Of a stretch of 21,058 nt of DNA, positions 6,995-21,058 are shown one piece after another. The translations under genes and the position numbers were made by a program. Under the pieces are notes generated by a model. It saw only the letters and a program-made list of their open reading frames with translations. It was not told where the DNA came from and made no database searches. The number at the start of each line of letters is the position of its first letter. Positions within the stretch are counted from its first letter, which is position 1. The DNA is from a virus: the IMG/VR virus record IMGVR_UViG_3300044701_001786, positions 1-21,058 of that record; one strand, written 5' to 3'.

Positions 6995-8413
6995 TCACTC
7001 GTCCTCCGTTGTAGTCATTGTATCGGGCTCCGGTTGCTCAGACGTCTCGACAACATCCTCGATGGCGTCTGCTTCCTCTTCGATGTTTACGTTGTCGGGC
7101 AGGATTTCGCCACGGCGCAGGATTTCCAGCAGCATGGCGTCGGTGATTTTGCCTGCTTGGTTGAGTTGGGTGAGGACCGCGACGTCTTGGCCGATTAGGC
7201 GGTAGTAGTCGAAGTCGCGGTCGATTGTGATTTCGGGCGGTTCCATGCCGACGTACTGGGCGGCGAAGGCGAACGCTTGGTTGAGGGCAGACTCCAGTTC
7301 TTGGCTGATGATTGAAAGGACCGAGTTGGACTGGGCCTGGTCGATGCGCTTTGCCTCGGCAGACTCCGCGACGAATTTCTGGCCGAAGAGTTTGGTGACG
7401 CCCAACGTGGACATTTGAGAGGCCAGGGACTCCAGTTCGGCCATCTGGGCGTCGAAACTGGTGGCGTCCGCCTGCACGTAGTACGCCTTGTTGCCCGGTT
7501 GCATGGCGATGGCGTAGTTCACGCCCATCGTTGCGGAACCCGTGGTGTCGTCCCAGCCCTCTAGGACAAGGGTGGGCATTGCGGCGATGTGGAGGGCGTG
7601 GATTAGGTCGGCTTGGCGTTGGTAGTGGGTGATGTTGAGGTTGGCGATGTCCAACAACGGTGGTTGGGAGATCAGTAGGCCACGGCGGTTGCTGTAGATG
7701 GGGACCAGGGGGATTTCGTCCAGGCTGTAGCCGCCGGACTCGCTGAATTCGACGACTTCCTGGCCCAGGGTGTAGAGGTCGTAGCGGCCTGGGTATATGA
7801 CGCGCATCTGCTCGATCTGCTCCTCGCCGAAATCGTTGAGAGGGCGGACGTCGTAGTCGTGGATGCGGACCTGGAGTAGGCGGTTAGTGCCGCCTTCCTT
7901 GCGCCAGCCCCAGATTTGAGGGGCGTCGACGTGGACAAAGTAGGGGCGGCGGCCCATGGCGCGTTCTTCCGCCAGGTTGCGGGCACCCATTGCCGCCGGA
8001 TAATCAACCAGGACGGCGCTATGGCCGTAGGTCAGGCTGCTTACCAGTGCGCGGCGGGCGTACTCGTTGATGCTGGAGCCCAGGCCGTCGATGTCTTGGC
8101 ATAGATCCAGCCAATATTGGTCGCCCTCGACGTGGATGGGCTTGCGGAGGATCGCACCAGCGGCTGTTTCGATTAGGCGGCTGGTGTACGGGGAAAGGAC
8201 GGAGCGGTTTACTCGCGTTAGGTAGGCATCCTCGTCTTCTCGCGGTTCCTGCGGGAGGTAGGTCTCGGACAGGTCGCGGATGTAGTTGGTGCCACGGGTG
8301 ACGGCAGCCATAATGCCCCAGTCCGGCATCATGGCGATGACGTCCAGGCTGCGGACGAAGGGGGACTCGCTGACTACAGCGCCAGTTGGGGGGATGTTGG
8401 CGCTGTAAACCAC
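6995..8413 (-). CDS. Portal protein (DUF4055-like)
   Basis: This 472-residue protein would form the DNA entry and exit ring at one capsid vertex and bind the terminase. It shows the DUF4055-type portal layout: an N-terminal MMPDWGIMAAVTRGTNYIRDLSETYLPQEP region, RLIETAAGAILRKPI, a central NLNITHYQRQADLIHALHIAAMPTLVLEGW helix-strand stretch, FGQKFVAESAEAKRIDQAQSN, and a long helix ending in an acidic tail. The start is GTG, preceded by AGGAGG with 6-nt spacing. Length and location, downstream of the large terminase on the same strand, are as expected. No frameshift or missing region is seen. Confidence 0.88.
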   Translation of the reverse strand: MVYSANIPPTGAVVSESPFVRSLDVIAMMPDWGIMAAVTRGTNYIRDLSETYLPQEPREDEDAYLTRVNRSVLSPYTSRLIETAAGAILRKPIHVEGDQYWLDLCQDIDGLGSSINEYARRALVSSLTYGHSAVLVDYPAAMGARNLAEERAMGRRPYFVHVDAPQIWGWRKEGGTNRLLQVRIHDYDVRPLNDFGEEQIEQMRVIYPGRYDLYTLGQEVVEFSESGGYSLDEIPLVPIYSNRRGLLISQPPLLDIANLNITHYQRQADLIHALHIAAMPTLVLEGWDDTTGSATMGVNYAIAMQPGNKAYYVQADATSFDAQMAELESLASQMSTLGVTKLFGQKFVAESAEAKRIDQAQSNSVLSIISQELESALNQAFAFAAQYVGMEPPEITIDRDFDYYRLIGQDVAVLTQLNQAGKITDAMLLEILRRGEILPDNVNIEEEADAIEDVVETSEQPEPDTMTTTEDE

Positions 8414-9457: not shown

Positions 9458-10702
9458 TTACCACACACGATAGTTGGTCTTGCCCATGGATTCCGGCTTT
9501 GCCAGGTTGAAGACCTGCAGACACAGGTAGCCGAGGGCGTCGAAGGCGTGATCCACGCCCAGGTTTTTGTTGGGGAGGCCCGTGTTGGGGGCGTAGGTCA
9601 ACGTGCGAAGGGATTTTATTAATTCTTTACATCGCGGGTGGATGAAGAGGCGGCGGGTGCCCGATGCGTCGAGGAGGGCAGTGTTGACGCAAGTGATCTT
9701 GTCGCGGATTTTCCAGGGGGAGCGCGGGCTGGAGACAGTGAAGCCGGATTTGCGGAGGATGTTGTGGTCGGTGGCGCCAACGCCAGAGGTTTTGCGGGCG
9801 CCGCCTGTTGGGTCGGGGCACGCGATGATGCGGCGCTCCACGCCGTAGCGGTTTTGGACCTCTTCGCAGAAATCCCAGGTGGTGGCGCCACCGGTCATGA
9901 TGATTTCGTCGAAAACCCACAGGACGTCGCCCTTTTTGACGGCGCAAATGCCTGACATGGGGTCGATGTTGAAGTCCACCCCCAGCAGCAAGGGCAAAAC
10001 TGGTAGGTCTTGGACGATCTTGTCGATGTTGTCGTCCGAGAAGGAGACCGCGACGAGACCGCTGAGATTCTCGAAGCTGGCCTCGAATTCTTGGCGGAAG
10101 GTGCGGGCGTCGAGTTGGGCGCGGGCGGCTTCGATTTCGGCTGCTGGGACGTTATCGCCCTCAATCGTGGTGAATTGCCACCGGGCCCAGTCCGGATCGT
10201 CCTCCTCGCAGTAACACCAGAGGTCGTAAAACCAGCTCGCGGTTCCATCTGGGGTGGAGATGAAGAGGGCCCATCCCTGTTTGTCGGCAAGGGCGGGGCG
10301 GATCACCTCGAACCAGACCTCGGAGTCCATGAAGGCGGCCTCGTCCAGCACCACGCCCGCCAAACTCCGGCCTCGCAGGGCCATGGCGTTCTCGGTGCCC
10401 TTCAATTCGATGGTGCTGCCGTTCACCAGCTCGATCTTGAGGTCGGTCTCGTTTTTGCTTTTGACCCAGGCTTTTGGGACGAGGCGTTTGAGTAGCTTCC
10501 ACACGATGTCCTTCGCCATTCGGTAGCTGGGGGCGCAGTAGAAATAGGTTTCGCCCGGGCGTTCGATGGCTCCACGCAGAAGTTCGACGCAAGAGAGGTA
10601 GCTCTTGCCGAATCGGCGACCGGCGACGAGGACGCGGAATCGGGTGCGGCTTGCGAAGACTTCGCCCTGTGCGTGGCGAAGACTGACAGTGTTATCGCTC
10701 AT
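9458..10702 (-). CDS. terL: Terminase large subunit (ATPase-nuclease)
   Basis: This 414-residue protein is the DNA packaging motor that translocates and cuts the concatemer at the portal. The ATPase domain has the Walker A variant GRRFGKS at residues 28-34, a Walker B VVLDEAAF at 117-124 with catalytic Glu 121, and a coupling FISTPDG motif at about 148-154. The nuclease domain (RNase H fold) is marked by LLGVDFNIDPM with Asp 243, an IACPDPTGG segment carrying a second acidic residue, and HAFDALGYL near the C-terminus. All key motifs are present and no truncation is seen. The ATG lies just after an inverted repeat (10707-10732). The small subunit is not adjacent: the only candidate lies 3.3 kb away at 13958. 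Confidence 0.95.
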   Translation of the reverse strand: MSDNTVSLRHAQGEVFASRTRFRVLVAGRRFGKSYLSCVELLRGAIERPGETYFYCAPSYRMAKDIVWKLLKRLVPKAWVKSKNETDLKIELVNGSTIELKGTENAMALRGRSLAGVVLDEAAFMDSEVWFEVIRPALADKQGWALFISTPDGTASWFYDLWCYCEEDDPDWARWQFTTIEGDNVPAAEIEAARAQLDARTFRQEFEASFENLSGLVAVSFSDDNIDKIVQDLPVLPLLLGVDFNIDPMSGICAVKKGDVLWVFDEIIMTGGATTWDFCEEVQNRYGVERRIIACPDPTGGARKTSGVGATDHNILRKSGFTVSSPRSPWKIRDKITCVNTALLDASGTRRLFIHPRCKELIKSLRTLTYAPNTGLPNKNLGVDHAFDALGYLCLQVFNLAKPESMGKTNYRVW

Positions 10703-14516: not shown

Positions 14517-15362
14517 TCAGCCCGAGACGTGCGGCAGTTGGAAGTATTGCTCCACCCGCCCCAGGAATGAATCCTTAGCCCAGGCTAGTTCATCTGTACT
14601 AAACACGAACACGTCTGGCTTGCCGCACCTGCGGGCCAATACCACGGCTGCTCCAGACGGCTTGAGGCCGGTCATGTGCTCCAGTCCCAGTGCGTAGGCA
14701 CCGAGTTGGTCGAAGTATGAATGGCCCCTGCCGATCTCCTTGCGTCCCACGCTGGTCTTCCAGTCCGCGACAATCAACCCTGAATGGCCCTTGAGGCTTA
14801 CCAGTGCGTCGCAGGTTCCAGCGAAGCCGGCGGGGTGGTGGATGCTGAATTCGCTGGCGAAAATTTCTGTGACGTTTTCAGCGATCCAGCCGGACAAGCC
14901 ACGGGCATAACCTGAAGCGCTCCAGCCGACTTTGGGGACGTTGGGGTGGACTTTGCTGAGGGCCCACTCCGTAATCTTGCTGGGGATGCGGGCTAGGCCC
15001 TGGTCGTCCCAGTGAATGGCGTTGCGTTTGTTTGCAGTGCTACGTGCTAGGCGTTGTGAAGTTTTGAGAAGATATTCAGCCTGTGAATGGGCCATGTTGC
15101 CGCGATTCGCAGCAACGTCCCGTTGTTGAGAAGCCTCGGCCTCCCCCAGTCGTGCGACCCAGCGATCCAGTCCGGTAGTGTCGCTGGTTTCCTTAAGAAT
15201 ATGTGTGACAGAAGAGTACACATTACCTTTATCGTCCCTGTAAACCCTGTAGGGTCCCGAATTATCCTGTACCAGTTTTCGATGTCTTAAACCAGCGAGA
15301 GTGTCTTGTGTGTTGGACATCGAAGATACTACTTCCCTCTTGGATTCTACTACCTGTGTCAA
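14517..15362 (-). CDS. PD-(D/E)XK nuclease of RecB/Cas4 type
   Basis: This protein has 281 residues from a TTG, or 267 from the ATG at 15320. The nuclease core is visible: Glu 171, GTCDALV with Asp 185, LIVADWKTS with Asp 200 and Lys 202, and QLGAYALGLE at about 219-228 (numbered from the TTG). These are the RecB-like motifs for two-metal DNA cleavage. Such phage exonucleases act in recombination or DNA processing, usually with an ssDNA-binding partner, and one lies two genes away. The TTG overlaps the HNH stop (TTGA) with GGAG 7 nt upstream. The ATG has AGGGAAG 11 nt upstream and may be the ancestral start if the HNH gene was inserted. Whether it is an exonuclease or a Cas4-like enzyme is not settled. 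No Cys cluster for a Fe-S site is evident. Confidence 0.75.
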   Translation of the reverse strand: MTQVVESKREVVSSMSNTQDTLAGLRHRKLVQDNSGPYRVYRDDKGNVYSSVTHILKETSDTTGLDRWVARLGEAEASQQRDVAANRGNMAHSQAEYLLKTSQRLARSTANKRNAIHWDDQGLARIPSKITEWALSKVHPNVPKVGWSASGYARGLSGWIAENVTEIFASEFSIHHPAGFAGTCDALVSLKGHSGLIVADWKTSVGRKEIGRGHSYFDQLGAYALGLEHMTGLKPSGAAVVLARRCGKPDVFVFSTDELAWAKDSFLGRVEQYFQLPHVSG

Positions 15363-15880
15363 CTAGCTGCTCCAGGTGAGGCCATGTCGCCGAAATGCAA
15401 AACTGCTGCGTCTGCATAGGCTTTAGCTGCTTCCTCTGTAGTAGGGAAACAACCCAAATGGATAAGTTCTCCGTTTACGCGAATACGTGCTTGGTAGCTG
15501 CTGCACCGTGAAAGTTTACGCACTCCTTTTACGCCGAGTGTATTGTTCTTGTACACAGTAGTGTTTCGCGGTTGTTCTCCAGCTTGTACTAAGCGCAGAT
15601 TGAATGGGCAATTGTTTGCTCTGTTGCGGTCGGCGTGGTCAATTTCTTGTGTACCAGGATCTTTACCGCTTAACCAAGCCCACACAAGGCGGTGGGCGTA
15701 GTACTTGTCCCCGTTAAATGCTCCGAAGACATACCCACTCGTAGAAATGACTCCGAATGGGCCGCGTTTTGAGACAACACCTTTACGAGGGCGGCGAATA
15801 AGCCTGCCATCCCAAAGCCGGAGATCGAATGCCTCCCACAGCTCTTCGGCAGCTGGAAGGGGCTTGTATGCTTTTGCCAT
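15359..15880 (-). CDS. Free-standing HNH homing endonuclease with AP2 domain
   Basis: This 173-residue protein shows an HNH core: YYAHRLVWAWLSGKDPGTQE, then IDHADRNRANNCPFNLRLV, with His, Asp-His and Asn at the expected spacing. After that comes an AP2-type DNA-binding domain at about residues 120-165 (GVKGVRKLSRCSSYQARIRV, GELIHLGCFPTTEEAAKAYA). This combination is standard in phage and cyanobacterial homing endonucleases. It is not inside an intron: the genes on both sides are intact. It sits between the nuclease and the ssDNA-binding-type gene, and a 30-nt hairpin (15904-15933) lies just upstream of its start. Such genes spread by cutting endonuclease-free alleles and copying themselves in. 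Confidence 0.85.
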   Translation of the reverse strand: MAKAYKPLPAAEELWEAFDLRLWDGRLIRRPRKGVVSKRGPFGVISTSGYVFGAFNGDKYYAHRLVWAWLSGKDPGTQEIDHADRNRANNCPFNLRLVQAGEQPRNTTVYKNNTLGVKGVRKLSRCSSYQARIRVNGELIHLGCFPTTEEAAKAYADAAVLHFGDMASPGAAS

Positions 15881-15946: not shown

Positions 15947-16528
15947 TTACGCAGGCTTAAAAGGGTTCCCGTTTGTGAGGAGCCTCGAGATATCGAAGCC
16001 CTCTGCTTTCGCCTCAATCCAGGCTGAATCCAGGTGCTCTTGGCTGCCCTTCTTACGGGGTGCAGGGCGAAGGGTGTACTCAGTGGTAAGACCGGCACCC
16101 TTCTTGGACAGGATGAAGTCCCACTCCAGGAGATTTTCATAATCCTCCATTTGGCTGACCTGATCCAGCTCCTTGATGATTGACTTCTGGGTCAACTGCA
16201 GGACCTGGACTTTGCCCGCGTCATACACGTACACAGGGACCGCTATGAAAAATTTGATGTCCACGGTGCCAGGGCCGCCACGGCCTTCGCGGGGCTCGAA
16301 GTCGCCCAGTTCGGCGGTCACGTCCTCGGGGGTGGGCTGGTGGTCGAAGCGGAACGGCTTGGATTGGCCATCGCACTGGCCCCAGCACTCGAAGCCTTCG
16401 AGGGGTTGGTCGGACAGCAGTGCGAAGCGCACGGAGCCGCCGTCGGGAAGTTTGGAAACTTGCAGGTAGCCGCCGCCGGAAGCGGAGCCCGAAACGGATG
16501 CTGCGGCTTGCTTGGAAAGGAATCCCAT
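15947..16528 (-). CDS. Probable phage ssDNA-binding (SSB/gp32-like) protein
   Basis: I chose the ATG at 16528, giving 193 residues and a clean start MGFLSKQAAASVSG. Upstream codons of the longer frame run through the divergent promoter. The sequence has a Gly/Ser-rich start, then beta-rich strands (GGSVRFALLSDQPLEGFECW, then DIKFFIAVPVYVYDAGKVQV), then QKSIIKELDQVSQMEDYENL-WDFILSKKGAGLTTEYTLRPA. The last part resembles the 'I-(K)xL-(D)...-y(D)f-I-r-G-GL-T-Y' pattern of OB-fold phage ssDNA-binding proteins of the gp32 class. There is no acidic C-terminal tail like classic SSB or gp32. It lies divergent from the primase-helicase and upstream of the nuclease, which supports a replication/recombination role. 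The function is inferred. Confidence 0.5.
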   Translation of the reverse strand: MGFLSKQAAASVSGSASGGGYLQVSKLPDGGSVRFALLSDQPLEGFECWGQCDGQSKPFRFDHQPTPEDVTAELGDFEPREGRGGPGTVDIKFFIAVPVYVYDAGKVQVLQLTQKSIIKELDQVSQMEDYENLLEWDFILSKKGAGLTTEYTLRPAPRKKGSQEHLDSAWIEAKAEGFDISRLLTNGNPFKPA

Positions 16529-16676
16529 GGTCGTGTTTGTAGGGTTTGGTCGGGCTGTGTTGCCCAACGTGTGACACAGTAACACGGGGTTGCCCCCGCG
16601 TCTACCCTAATGAAACGGCCCCAGCGAGAAACCGCCGGAGCCGTAGAAACACACATTCCTGTAGGAGTCTAACACT
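16529..16676. promoter_or_regulatory. Divergent control region between ssDNA-binding-type and primase-helicase genes
   Basis: These 148 bases must hold both start signals. Nested dyads stand out: CTGTGT (16555-16560) with ACACAG (16574-16579), GTTG-CC-CAAC (16559-16568), and CGGGG-ttgc-CCCCG (about 16585-16598). Further along, ACGGC and GCCGT flank a 20-odd base loop. The primase start (GTG) has AGGAG with 9-nt spacing. Exact -10 and -35 elements are not convincing. Confidence 0.5.
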
Positions 16677-19094
16677 GTGTCAAGAGAGTCTCAAGAGTTG
16701 CTGGCTTTTGTGCGCCAGTTGCCGGTGGGCATGGCATACACCCCCATCTACGCCAAGGGCTGCAAGCTGGTTTCCGGCACCGTCAGCAAGGGCAAGACGC
16801 CGCTGGAGCGGGCGCACCACGCTGACCTGAATCCGTCTGATGTGGCACTTCAGATCGAGCGGAAGCCGGATGTGTTCCGGGCTGTGGGTGTGTTTACCGG
16901 TGCCAGGAGCAAGGGTCTCGTGATTCTTGACGTGGATCGCAACCTGGCCAAGTTGAAGAGCAAGTGGGGTGAGTCCCTGGAAGGGGCCCCCATGGTTACC
17001 AGCACCAAGCCGAATGCGGCCAAGTACCTGTTTCGGGTGCCCGAGGAGCTGTGGCCCGACGTCAAAGGTTTTGGCCTTTCGGATACAGGGGCGGGCTATG
17101 AGGTCCTGTGGGGCCGCCAGGGGCTCCTGTACGGGGCTTACCCGGGGTCTAGCGATGGGAAGGGCCTGGAGGGCTTCTACGGCTTTGTAGGCGATCTGGA
17201 GGCCATTCCAGAAGCTCCAGGGTGGTTGCTGGCGGAGATGAAGGACCACGCCGGGAAAGAGGTGGCCGACGGGGGTTTTATTAAGAACCGTAAAGCCCTG
17301 GATTTCTCAGATCGAGACCCGGGTGAGGTGGCTGAGATTATTCAGTCCGCGCTGCGGGTGATTCCAGGGCAGGGGGCTGGTAGTCGGGACCACTGGATCA
17401 AGGTGGGTATGGCGATCCACTCGGAGTTGCCGACTGAGTTGGGCATGACGTTGTGGTCGGCCTGGTCGGCGGATGATCCCGAGTACGCCGATGAATGGTC
17501 CGACGCCAATCCCTGTGAGCAGGTCTGGAAGAGCTTCAAGAAGGGCTCTGTGACCTTGGGGACGCTGTTTTGGATGGCGGACCAGCAGATGCCCGGACGG
17601 CTGTGGTTGCCCGAGGATTTGCGCAAGGTGGTGACCCAGCTGGAGGAGGCTGCAGGGGACTACGAAAAACTTCCTAAGTTCGCCGAAATCATTGCGGCCA
17701 CTAAGGATGCGCTCCAGTTGGAGAACCCCGCGGAGCAAAAGTATGAGCTACATAAAATTGCTCATAAAGCCAAAATGCGGGATGCTTTTGAGCTGGAGAA
17801 GATGTATGTAGATCAGGTTCAATATGAGTCTCAGTCGGAGACTATGACGGTCAAGGAACTGTTCGAGCAGAACTTTGAGCGGAGTTATTTGATTCCTGAT
17901 CTGCTGCCAAACCCTGCTGTCGTCTTGATTTACGGCGCTGGTGGTGACGGGAAGTCAATGGCAGCTTGGACTCTGGCTAAACACGTTGCTACCGGGGCGC
18001 CATTCGTTATTCGAGGGCAGCATGTCCCAGTGCAGCAGGGGCCGGTGCTGCTGCTAAACGGAGATCAGCCGCTGGGGCAGGTGCAGGAGCAGCTGCAGGA
18101 GGTTGAGATGCCTGCCGATGCTCCAGTCACCCTGCGTACTGACTGGACGCTCCAGTCGTATGCACGCTTCCAAAAACTGATGGAACGGGTGCGGCCCCGG
18201 CTGGTGGTGATCGACTCGCTTATCGGCTGCTCTGGTGGTAGGGCGTTCGACGAAAACAAGTCGGATTTCGCCACGCCTCTGTACTGGCTGACCCGGAACA
18301 ACGGGGTGCTTTTCCCGGCTACCACCATCCTCATCATTCACCACGCCAACAAAACCGGCGGCTTCCGGGGCACCAGTGCGATCCGGGATGCGGTGGATGA
18401 AACCTGGAGCCTCAAGCGGCCCAGCGACAAGCAGATCGAGCAGACGGGAGGCAACGCCCGGATCATCACCATTGAGAAGTCGCGCTCTGGACGCGGAGGC
18501 ACCAGCCTGCTGCTGCGTCAGGAGGCCGACCTGACCTTCACGCTGGCCGATTGGACCCCTGAGGTCGATCCAACCGAAACGGCGCCTTCTGGGGTCACTG
18601 ACAGGGTGCTCCAGCGGCTTCGCGTGGTTTACCCCGATGGCAAGACCCGGGAAGACCTCAACGCCGACGCTCTGTGTGGTGGCAGCGTCGCCGGAATCAG
18701 GAAGTCGCTCCAGCGGCTGGAGAAGCGTGGCCTGATTCAAGTGGTGGGCACCCGTAAGGACTCCCCTAAAGGCGGTAGACCCAGCAATGTGTACCAGGCG
18801 GTTGTAGCTCTCTCGCGGGGAGAGGGGGGAAAAGGGTGTCTCATTGACCAAAAACCCTGTCCTGACAAGGATTTAGCAATGGGACACTACCCTGCTGAAG
18901 TAGAAAGTGTCCCAGTTGCCTCTCAGATGGGACACCTTGGCTCTGTAGAGGGGGGCTGTCCCATTGCAGATCCCTCTGATACCAAGCGGTCTCAGCAAAT
19001 GGACACCCCTGAGACATATACCCCCGCGAGGGAGGAGCGCACGGAAGCCGAGATGGAGCAGCTGAAGCAGGCTGCGGCGGACGCATGGAGCTGA
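16677..19094 (+). CDS. Primase-polymerase/helicase fusion (prim-pol plus RepA-like ATPase)
   Basis: This 805-residue protein would prime and unwind at the phage fork. The N-terminal ~210 residues form a bifunctional primase-polymerase domain: metal-binding DVD at 85-87 (VILDVDRN), then TSTKPNAAKYLFRVPEE and GYEVLWGRQGLLYGAYPG. A PriCT_2-like helical linker follows (GSRDHWIKVGMAIHSELPTE, residues about 235-310). Next is a RecA-fold helicase with Walker A GAGGDGKS at 420-427, Walker B LVVIDS with Asp 513, IIHHANKTGGFRGTSAIRD, and a C-terminal winged-helix-like segment near 640-705. The last ~100 residues are low complexity and contain a DNA repeat array. GTG start with AGGAG 9 nt upstream. First gene of the plus-strand early operon. 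Confidence 0.85.
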   Translation: MSRESQELLAFVRQLPVGMAYTPIYAKGCKLVSGTVSKGKTPLERAHHADLNPSDVALQIERKPDVFRAVGVFTGARSKGLVILDVDRNLAKLKSKWGESLEGAPMVTSTKPNAAKYLFRVPEELWPDVKGFGLSDTGAGYEVLWGRQGLLYGAYPGSSDGKGLEGFYGFVGDLEAIPEAPGWLLAEMKDHAGKEVADGGFIKNRKALDFSDRDPGEVAEIIQSALRVIPGQGAGSRDHWIKVGMAIHSELPTELGMTLWSAWSADDPEYADEWSDANPCEQVWKSFKKGSVTLGTLFWMADQQMPGRLWLPEDLRKVVTQLEEAAGDYEKLPKFAEIIAATKDALQLENPAEQKYELHKIAHKAKMRDAFELEKMYVDQVQYESQSETMTVKELFEQNFERSYLIPDLLPNPAVVLIYGAGGDGKSMAAWTLAKHVATGAPFVIRGQHVPVQQGPVLLLNGDQPLGQVQEQLQEVEMPADAPVTLRTDWTLQSYARFQKLMERVRPRLVVIDSLIGCSGGRAFDENKSDFATPLYWLTRNNGVLFPATTILIIHHANKTGGFRGTSAIRDAVDETWSLKRPSDKQIEQTGGNARIITIEKSRSGRGGTSLLLRQEADLTFTLADWTPEVDPTETAPSGVTDRVLQRLRVVYPDGKTREDLNADALCGGSVAGIRKSLQRLEKRGLIQVVGTRKDSPKGGRPSNVYQAVVALSRGEGGKGCLIDQKPCPDKDLAMGHYPAEVESVPVASQMGHLGSVEGGCPIADPSDTKRSQQMDTPETYTPAREERTEAEMEQLKQAAADAWS
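18836..19006 (+). repeat. Alternating inverted-repeat array within the primase-helicase 3' end, candidate origin
   Basis: Six sites match the consensus CAATGGGACAC with alternating orientation: GTGTCTCATTG 18836-18846 (reverse), CAATGGGACAC 18877-18887 (forward), GTGTCCCA 18907-18914 (reverse), ATGGGACAC 18927-18935 (forward), CTGTCCCATTG 18956-18966 (reverse), CAAATGGACAC 18996-19006 (forward). A TGTCctGACA dyad lies at 18858-18867. Forward copies encode MGH or MDT. Reverse copies encode CLI, SVPV or CPI in two frames, so the DNA rather than the peptide is conserved. Lambda has its origin iterons inside the linker of gene O, a clear precedent. Confidence 0.6.
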
Positions 19095-19098
19095 CGCC

Positions 19099-19434
19099 GT
19101 GTCTAACTTTTTGTTATGGCTCCTTGCCAAAATCAGCAAGCCTGCGCGGAGGGATCCAGTGGCCGTAACCGACAGCAGGCCAAAGCCCCGTCCTCCCAGG
19201 CGGCCCACCTTCAACTTCATCCAGAACTCCATCCCCGATGACGTCCACAGCGTCATCAGGACCACGTGGTTCAAAAACGGGAAGGTCTGCGAGGTGGACC
19301 AGATCATCCTTCCCGAGGATGAAGACTCCCTGGAGGTGTTCCAGTACCTGGTCGGTGGGGCTCTGCGGAATGGTTGTGACGTCACCGTCATGACCACCTA
19401 CCCTCCTGAGGCCTTGGGGGTGCCCCGCGAATGA
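19099..19434 (+). CDS. Hypothetical 111-residue protein
   Basis: It has a GTG start with GGAG 8 nt upstream, placed in the end of the primase gene. The N-terminus is hydrophobic then basic (MSNFLLWLLAKISKPARR), possibly a weak membrane anchor, followed by a Pro/Arg-rich linker. A small globular domain follows (WFKNGKVCEVDQIILPEDED, LEVFQYLVGGALRNGCDVTV). I do not recognise a family. Its TGA overlaps the ATG of the next gene (ATGA), so it is coupled in the early operon. Confidence 0.6.
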   Translation: MSNFLLWLLAKISKPARRDPVAVTDSRPKPRPPRRPTFNFIQNSIPDDVHSVIRTTWFKNGKVCEVDQIILPEDEDSLEVFQYLVGGALRNGCDVTVMTTYPPEALGVPRE

Positions 19435-20500: not shown

Positions 20501-20911
20501 ATGCTTACTCTCCTCTCTGACAAGGAAATCAACCAGCTCCACAGCTACATGACGGAGTTGACCACCACGGTGGAAAACCTGACCCGGATTCTCGGTGGCG
20601 CCCAGACCGTTGCCTTCGACTTCGAGCAGCCAATCACTCCAAAGCCAGTCAAAGTTTCTGCTGCCCCAGTGCAGAAGTCTCAGCGTAAGACTCGTGGGTC
20701 CAAGCCTCGTAGGGGTGGCAACGCATCCCTGTCGGTGCGCCAGGTTGGCGAGATCAAGCGGTTGCTTGGTACCGGCAAGTCTGCAGCCGCGATTGCCCGT
20801 GAGTTCAAGGTCCACTACAGCACCATCAACGCCATCAAGTGGGGCAAGACCTGGAAGGATGTCGAGGCTGCCAACTCCAAGCCCTTGGAGATTGTGGAGA
20901 TCCGTAAGTGA
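20501..20911 (+). CDS. HTH DNA-binding protein
   Basis: The protein has 136 residues. The N-terminal ~35 residues are a coiled-coil-like helix (LSDKEINQLHSYMTELTTTV) that could mediate dimerisation, followed by a basic linker (SQRKTRGSKPRRGGN). The C-terminal half is a recombinase/Hin-type helix-turn-helix (LSVRQVGEIKRLLGTGKSAA, IAREFKVHYSTINAIKWGKT). This is a phage regulator type I recognise by motif, without a catalytic domain, so it is probably a transcription factor or DNA-organising protein. It has no clear Shine-Dalgarno sequence. Its TGA overlaps the GTG of dcd. Confidence 0.7.
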   Translation: MLTLLSDKEINQLHSYMTELTTTVENLTRILGGAQTVAFDFEQPITPKPVKVSAAPVQKSQRKTRGSKPRRGGNASLSVRQVGEIKRLLGTGKSAAAIAREFKVHYSTINAIKWGKTWKDVEAANSKPLEIVEIRK

Positions 20912-21058
20912 TTTTGTGTGACAGCGAGATTCGGGCCCTCTGTGAGGGGGGCCTTGTCGATCCTTACGATCCAGTCCTAGTCAATCCAGCCAGCCTGGAT
21001 GTACGCCTTGGGTTTGAGTTGATGGTTGAGGTGGAGGAGTATCCGACACTGATTCCAG
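20908..21058 (+). CDS. dcd: dCTP deaminase, N-terminal part (truncated by window edge)
   Basis: A GTG at 20908 overlaps the previous TGA (GTGA) and opens a frame that runs off the right edge after 50 codons. It reads MILCDSEIRALCEGGLVDPY, then VLVNPASLDVRLGFELMV. The MIL-D-EI start and the QPAS-LD-RLG motif (here NPASLDVRLG) are hallmarks of dCTP deaminase (and bifunctional dCTP deaminase/dUTPase), which makes dUTP from dCTP for thymidylate supply. Catalytic residues lie beyond the window. It follows a replication cluster, consistent with nucleotide supply during phage DNA synthesis. Confidence 0.8.
   Translation, partial: MILCDSEIRALCEGGLVDPYDPVLVNPASLDVRLGFELMVEVEEYPTLIP

Follow-up and report, generated by a model that had tools for sequence, protein, structure and literature searches.

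A dyad-symmetric array of GGACA sites within a phage primase-helicase gene: a candidate replication origin inside the coding sequence of its putative initiator

Introduction

The Rep protein (pri-rep) of SaPI/PICI elements and Cch2 of SCCmec are self-loading helicases whose C-terminal domain reads short repeats located at the gene's 3' end; the iterons of Cch2 are AAGTG, the primase is linked or fused, and allelic Pri-Rep variants exist (PMC7581432, PMC6092414). A comparison with SV40 and the papillomaviruses is drawn in the first of these papers (PMC7581432). The alpha protein of P4 unites in one polypeptide a primase, a helicase and a winged-helix domain for origin binding, which reads repeats (work cited in PMC4234260). 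The pRN1 protein ORF904 and that of Bordetella phage BIP-1 combine an AEP, a PriCT_2 domain, an SF3 helicase and a wHTH, with an origin situated 3' to the gene (PMC4234260). Initiator genes that contain origin repeats are known from lambda (gene O; PMC3985674), a precedent that the first-pass annotation of the present locus had cited, and from SPP1, where oriL is in gene 38 (PMC6316719). In geminiviruses, residues of the iteron-related domain of Rep covary with bases of the iteron, and the exchange of 200–360 bp switches replication specificity (PMC2974675).

Here, an array of short sites is described in a 21,058-nt stretch of viral DNA (IMG/VR record IMGVR_UViG_3300044701_001786, positions 1 to 21,058; hereafter, the window). 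The array is probably a replication origin nested in the gene of its own initiator, made up of two inverted half-origins and read by the wHTH domain of the encoded protein.

Results

Organization and symmetry of the array

The presence of the array in the window is confirmed: all six sites of alternating orientation that had been proposed for positions 18836-19006 were found there, in the order - + - + - + (Table 1). One copy matches CAATGGGACAC exactly, two differ from it at one base and three at two. Across the window the total for this motif is ordinary (8 seen, 7.05 expected), while the clustering is not, with six sites in 171 nt, where 300 dinucleotide shuffles of the whole window gave at most three, and six sites in the 340-nt tail of the gene against at most two in 2000 shuffles. 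All six lie inside the coding sequence and, as was also predicted, fall in different frames depending on orientation (offsets 2, 1, 1, 1, 2 and 0), so that the encoded peptide differs with orientation. The palindrome about position 18921, an outer repeat on its axis, the GGACA core of the sites and the wHTH encoded immediately upstream had not been noted in the first-pass annotation.

Table 1. Positions of the array, of the gene that contains it and of neighbouring genes in the window.
Feature	Positions	Strand	Sequence or basis
Site A	18836-18846	-	CAATGAGACAC, degenerate core; motif search; slot kept in relatives at -258 from stop
Site B	18877-18887	+	CAATGGGACAC; motif search; slots of relatives
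Site C	18907-18917	-	AACTGGGACAC; motif search; slots of relatives
Site D	18925-18935	+	AGATGGGACAC; motif search; slots of relatives
Site E	18956-18966	-	CAATGGGACAG; motif search; slots of relatives
Site F	18996-19006	+	CAAATGGACAC; motif search; slots of relatives
Dyad axis of whole array	18921		Mirrored sums of A/F, B/E and C/D, matching outer repeat
Outer inverted repeat, left arm	18808-18820	+	CTCTCTCGCGGGG; 13 nt, 92% complementary to right arm
Outer inverted repeat, right arm	19022-19034	+	CCCCGCGAGGGAG; axis common to array
Left accessory box (tentative)	18855-18870		CCCTGTCCTGACAAGG (relatives CCAGTnnnnnACTGG); between A and B; relatives compared; weak in window
Right accessory box (tentative)	18972-18989		CCCTCTGATACCAAGCGG (relatives CCAGTGATACCAATGG); between E and F; relatives compared
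Primase-helicase gene, array in 3' end	16677-19094	+	805 aa; ORF; Pfam; helicase fold
PriCT-2 domain (residues 222-301)	17340-17579	+	Pfam PF08707, E 2e-17; beside N-terminal primase region
RecA-like SF4 helicase core (residues 390-561)	17844-18359	+	Pfam AAA_25, E 4.6e-20
wHTH domain (modelled residues 634-716), proposed origin-binding	18576-18824	+	AlphaFold; Foldseek
Recognition helix (residues 671-684)	18687-18728	+	R675 codon 18699-18701; Q679 codon 18711-18713
Disordered stretch (residues 711-787) encoding array	18807-19037	+	pLDDT <50 throughout, 22-29 in most
C-terminal helix (residues 790-804), 3' of array	19044-19088	+	pLDDT 77-89; conserved
Terminase large subunit	9458-10702	-
Exonuclease	14517-15362
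HNH_3 endonuclease	15359-15880	-
SSB-like gene	15947-16585
Small HTH protein	20501-20911	+	HTH_38, resolvase-like
dCTP deaminase-like gene, start (probable)	20917-21058	+	Weak Pfam match; cut by window end

The six sites are spaced 41-30-18-31-40, and the sums of the three mirrored pairs agree within 1 bp, an arrangement with a probability of about 0.002 for alternating sites placed at random. The TCTCGCG of the left arm of the outer repeat is conserved in many relatives. Symmetry is also general among them: over 105 lineages, a median of 86% of sites per lineage have a mirror partner within 1 bp, and the symmetry reaches p<=0.05 in 79. It extends to the flanks outside the motif, where complementarity at arm distances of 80-180 is 0.41-0.52, compared with 0.21-0.29 about shifted axes. 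The spacings in relatives cluster at values (10/11, 16 or 26, 34/35 and 44/45 bp) that differ by roughly one helical turn, and in the canonical group the two halves of the array can be recognised as inverted copies of one another, including a second box. This mirrored box (CCAGTnnnnnACTGG/CCAGTGATACCAATGG), found between the outer and the next sites, is clearer in L031, L051, L053 and L059, and is possibly bound by another protein.

The primase-helicase protein

The encoded protein carries a primase-associated region, an SF4 helicase and a C-terminal wHTH in one chain, as judged by the presence of the domains, their activities being inferred. Pfam returned no TOPRIM match in the protein, and PriCT_2, a partner of AEP primases, was found instead. 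By Foldseek, the predicted helicase fold matches DnaB (E 1.6e-9) and RSF1010 RepA (TM 0.65 of target), and sequence searches of the PDB gave only generic wHTH proteins and a weak match to RSF1010 RepA. The AlphaFold model of the wHTH (about residues 640-708) has helices at 640-650, 658-663 and 671-684 and wing strands at 687-693 and 703-708, and the best Foldseek matches to this predicted fold are winged-helix domains and wHTH regulators.

Beyond the disordered stretch that encodes the array, the chain ends in a helix that follows the array in nearly all relatives (L007-L469), and R788, E792 and A800 of the C-terminal region are invariant in 31 relatives. This helix may contact another replication protein, and such a role would account for a reading frame that is kept open across the array.

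Conservation of the array in related viruses

Viral contigs were scanned six times and genome contigs once, which yielded 201 non-identical homologous genes. An alignment of such homologues had been suggested as a check on the array, and it was borne out: the motifs persist while the peptide drifts, with four or more GGACA/TGTCC sites within the terminal 340 nt in 198 of the 201 genes and three sites in another two. The sole homologue without GGACA is L451, in which all six sites read CGACA. The invariant core in the relatives is GGACA, and the bases preceding it vary by lineage. Counted from the stop codon, the common slots are -258(-), -213(+), -197(-), optionally -187(-) and -163(+), -151(+), -135(-) and -90(+); a second group has runs of the same orientation at 10-bp steps on the left and their mirror image on the right. 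Each of six near-complete contigs has one dense cluster per genome, of 7-12 sites, whereas the second-densest place has 2-4. In a MAG relative on a Proteobacterial contig (L247, array at 7081-7295), the frame stops at 7220 inside the array, and the four mirrored pairs, with identical sums, run on past the stop and leave half of the array beyond it, although an assembly error is not excluded.

Among cultured phages, a tblastn search recovered S-CBS4 as the only relative, and this distant virus (28% identity) has no such array. It has the same gene order of exonuclease, annealing protein and ATPase, which makes a cyanobacterial host plausible, but no more. Cyanophage S-2L was considered as a relative on account of its similar terminase and rejected, since its PrimPol is of another type and it lacks such an array. 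The large terminase subunit encoded in the window is about 43% identical to those of S-2L and of Vibrio phages, and the replication genes are unrelated to those of S-2L. An HNH_3 endonuclease gene between the exonuclease and SSB-like genes is perhaps a homing endonuclease within the replication block.

Substitution rates were obtained from relatives at 80-98.5% protein identity. Motif substitutions were counted conditional on one genome keeping GGACA; an earlier count conditioned on both genomes was biased and was replaced. Core bases differ at 0.12/0.13/0.16 by codon position and the tail outside the core at 0.35/0.38/0.40, with no codon periodicity, compared with 0.13/0.09/0.40 in the gene body and 0.25/0.10/0.57 for GGACA words within that body. 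From these rates, the tail peptide is nearly free, while the sites are held. The core is constrained equally at all codon positions and the tail peptide drifts, so the suggestion that selection acts on the array DNA rather than on the encoded peptide is well supported. The disorder of the encoded stretch could also point to coincidental low-complexity repeats, or to a repeat in the peptide, but this is hardly credible and already contradicted by an array that is present in about 200 homologues, lacks codon periodicity, is symmetric and is homogenised within genomes.

Covariation between the sites and the recognition helix

The one to four bases 5' of GGACA are specific to a lineage and largely common to all sites of one genome. 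The mean motif mismatch is 0.88 of 4 within a genome and 2.01 between genomes at the same slot, and none of 2000 slot-preserving permutations gave a within-genome value as low. Homogenisation of this kind implies one reader acting in trans. When the protein columns outside the tail were scored for corrected mutual information against the two bases that precede GGACA, the highest value fell to residue 675 of the recognition helix, both among 416 columns in 62 lineages (0.388, next 0.287) and among 495 columns in 105 lineages (0.360, next 0.247). The base at -1 is G with lysine at this position (12/12) and with arginine (35/41), T with glutamine (13/13) and threonine (5/5), and A with glycine (8/10); it is C in 8/10 cases with an acidic residue 679. 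The two bases before the core are TG with R675 and GG with K675, and for position -3 it is residue 701, in the wing, that ranks first. Examples are the window itself (R675, TGGGACA), L059 (K675, GGGGACA), L031 (Q675, GTTGGACA), L041 (G675) and L153 (C-type). Among the lineages compared, N679 is unique to L451, which alone has an altered core as well; the replacement at the position of Q679 together with CGACA has the appearance of a natural specificity switch.

Covariation scores are inflated by phylogeny and linkage. In a test on disjoint nearest pairs, residue 675 led the wHTH columns in the first set (p=0.008, 26 pairs), but in the enlarged set it ranked tenth overall (p=0.024, 50 pairs, 6 discordant), and several columns of the gene body outscore it. 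This weak support means that linkage between the wHTH and the array accounts for part of the covariation, and the case for residue 675 rests on its rank and margin, its location in the recognition helix and the chemical sense of the pairings, and not on the disjoint-pairs test.

Linkage also leaves room for a different reader, either the HTH protein encoded 1.4 kb downstream or a host factor, with the wHTH covarying merely as the neighbour with which the array is swapped; the weak disjoint-pairs result would fit this. Under linkage alone, however, covariation should be spread broadly over the wHTH, but residue 675 is well separated from all other columns and has chemically sensible pairings, and L451 alters residue 679 along with a base of the core. 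A separate reader is accordingly considered improbable. The small downstream HTH protein remains a candidate accessory DNA binder. The most likely reader of the array is the protein's own wHTH, and its binding to the array is strongly supported by the sequence data, although physical binding is an inference and there are no binding data.

In the pair L053 and L057, the DNA is 88-99% identical over residues 1-630 and 56-78% identical over the wHTH and array, and the motifs differ; L044 and L059 show a similar pattern. It is evident that the sites move, or diverge, along with their reader.

The first-pass annotation had further proposed hairpins between neighbouring opposite copies, and the sequence can indeed fold (mean z -5.8; a control stretch gave -0.8). 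The functional form could then be a structured single strand or RNA with a large stem-loop, either like the pRN1 origin stem-loop or as an mRNA element. Mirrored flanks resemble each other more than other pairs do (0.51 against 0.28), and in pRN1 and BIP-1 similar replication genes are followed on the 3' side by stem-loops (PMC4234260). The folding scores, however, are strong at least partly because the sites are inverted copies, the mirrored flanks are mostly not complementary (0.26-0.52), and Rfam gave no match. The runs of one orientation at 10-bp steps suit duplex binding, and the lineage-specific bases are common to all copies rather than to partners only and follow residues of the recognition helix. 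Because of this covariation, binding to duplex DNA is favoured over a hairpin, and there is little to recommend a structured strand as the functional form.

Evidence for and against origin function

The first-pass annotation had left open whether the locus was an origin or a regulator array. The array itself is supported and an origin is the better of the two readings, but origin function is only inferred. The main rival is an operator: the wHTH would bind the sites and thereby control transcription of the early genes that follow, or act as a roadblock to that of its own gene, with no start of replication. The domain does resemble generic transcription regulators (PadR, GntR and MarR type), the next genes begin at 19099, and covariation due to binding would look identical. 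On the other hand, the reader forms one chain with a primase and a helicase, the sites are about 2.2 kb from the start of the gene, and 5-13 helically phased, symmetric sites are more than operators usually need. An operator is judged unlikely on these grounds.

Skew, named earlier as a further check, did not point to the array. Regression at four-fold sites, separating coding strand from replichore, was applied to 15 near-complete contigs of 42-47 kb (G001-G006 and G008-G016). The skew is mainly that of the coding strand, which is strong (-0.16 to -0.37); the replichore term is small and, in 15/15 contigs, opposite in sign to that expected with the array as origin; cumulative GC skew over whole contigs did not locate an origin either. 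Either skew carries no information here, or it speaks mildly against a theta origin at the array. No AT-rich unwinding element was found, the array having an AT content of 0.43-0.50 and the gene body one of 0.42.

In the most probable scheme, with the array as an origin, the wHTH of the primase-helicase would bind the GGACA sites; its recognition helix (R675 and Q679) would read the core together with the bases immediately 5' to it, and the wing may touch bases further out. The two inverted half-origins on one dyad axis would place two helicase assemblies head to head; this opposed arrangement is inferred. The duplex would then melt, the same polypeptide would prime, and the helicases would depart in both directions. 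Melting, priming and firing are inferred from the domain content and by analogy with SaPI Rep, Cch2 and P4 alpha. Since reader and sites adjoin, they could be exchanged as one cassette, giving rise to phages with mutually blind origins.

Discussion

Taken as a whole, we lean, though only slightly, towards a broader interpretation, in which a dyad-symmetric double half-origin, lying in an SF4 primase-helicase gene between the origin-reading wHTH and the C-terminal helix, has sites that follow a simple code linking amino acid to base and diversify by cassette exchange, so that reader, sites and helicase make up a self-contained, switchable unit of replication specificity in hundreds of environmental phages, and represents an origin class undescribed in the literature searched. 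That search, which did not cover most subscription journals or any preprints, found no description of such an arrangement, and novelty is provisional.

If this is right, a single gene is enough to read both origin and initiator in a widespread, apparently uncharacterised group of ~45-kb environmental phages, possibly cyanophages, and one or two residues suffice to predict the specificity of the protein for DNA. An SF4 helicase (DnaB/RepA-type) would be fused to its own origin-binding domain on a symmetric array, as if to set two helicases on the duplex, a way of working known chiefly from SF3/AAA+ initiators. A coding sequence would be evolving as an origin while the protein tolerates the drift, and replication specificity could switch rapidly among near-identical phages, as in geminiviruses. 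The roughly 200 natural variants make these claims directly testable.

The comparison with geminivirus Rep holds in that a residue of the putative initiator covaries with a base of the site and exchange is cassette-like, but Rep is an unrelated rolling-circle initiator of ssDNA plant viruses. The initiators of lambda and SPP1 are not helicases and load a separate DnaB-type helicase, whereas the phage protein has a helicase domain of its own; their repeats are described as direct repeats or iterons, with an AT-rich region in SPP1. SV40 T antigen and papillomavirus E1 also use symmetric, very short sites, which are bound by the helicase's own DNA-binding domain and on which two opposed hexamers assemble. 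They are SF3 helicases with N-terminal origin-binding domains, and their origins lie outside the helicase coding sequence.

In pRN1 and BIP-1 the domain order is close to that of the phage protein, but the helicase is SF3 and the stem-loop origin has no conserved sequence or iterons, whereas the phage sites are conserved and their flanks mostly not complementary. The phage protein is like P4 alpha in joining a primase region, a helicase and a wHTH in one chain, with primase activity inferred, and differs from it in that the P4 primase is of the TOPRIM (DnaG) type. The P4 origin (ori/crr) lies outside the alpha gene. Like the SaPI/PICI proteins, the phage protein is a helicase with a C-terminal wHTH, at least by domain presence. 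SaPI Rep and Cch2, however, have AAA+/SF3-type helicases and not an SF4 RecA-like one (AAA_25; DnaB and RSF1010 RepA in Foldseek), and the SaPI/PICI ori is 3' of the gene with sets of iterons flanking an AT-rich region, whereas the phage array is intragenic and has no AT-rich centre. The array module resembles the self-loading initiator-origin modules of the SaPI and P4 type, and differs from them enough not to be filed as a member.
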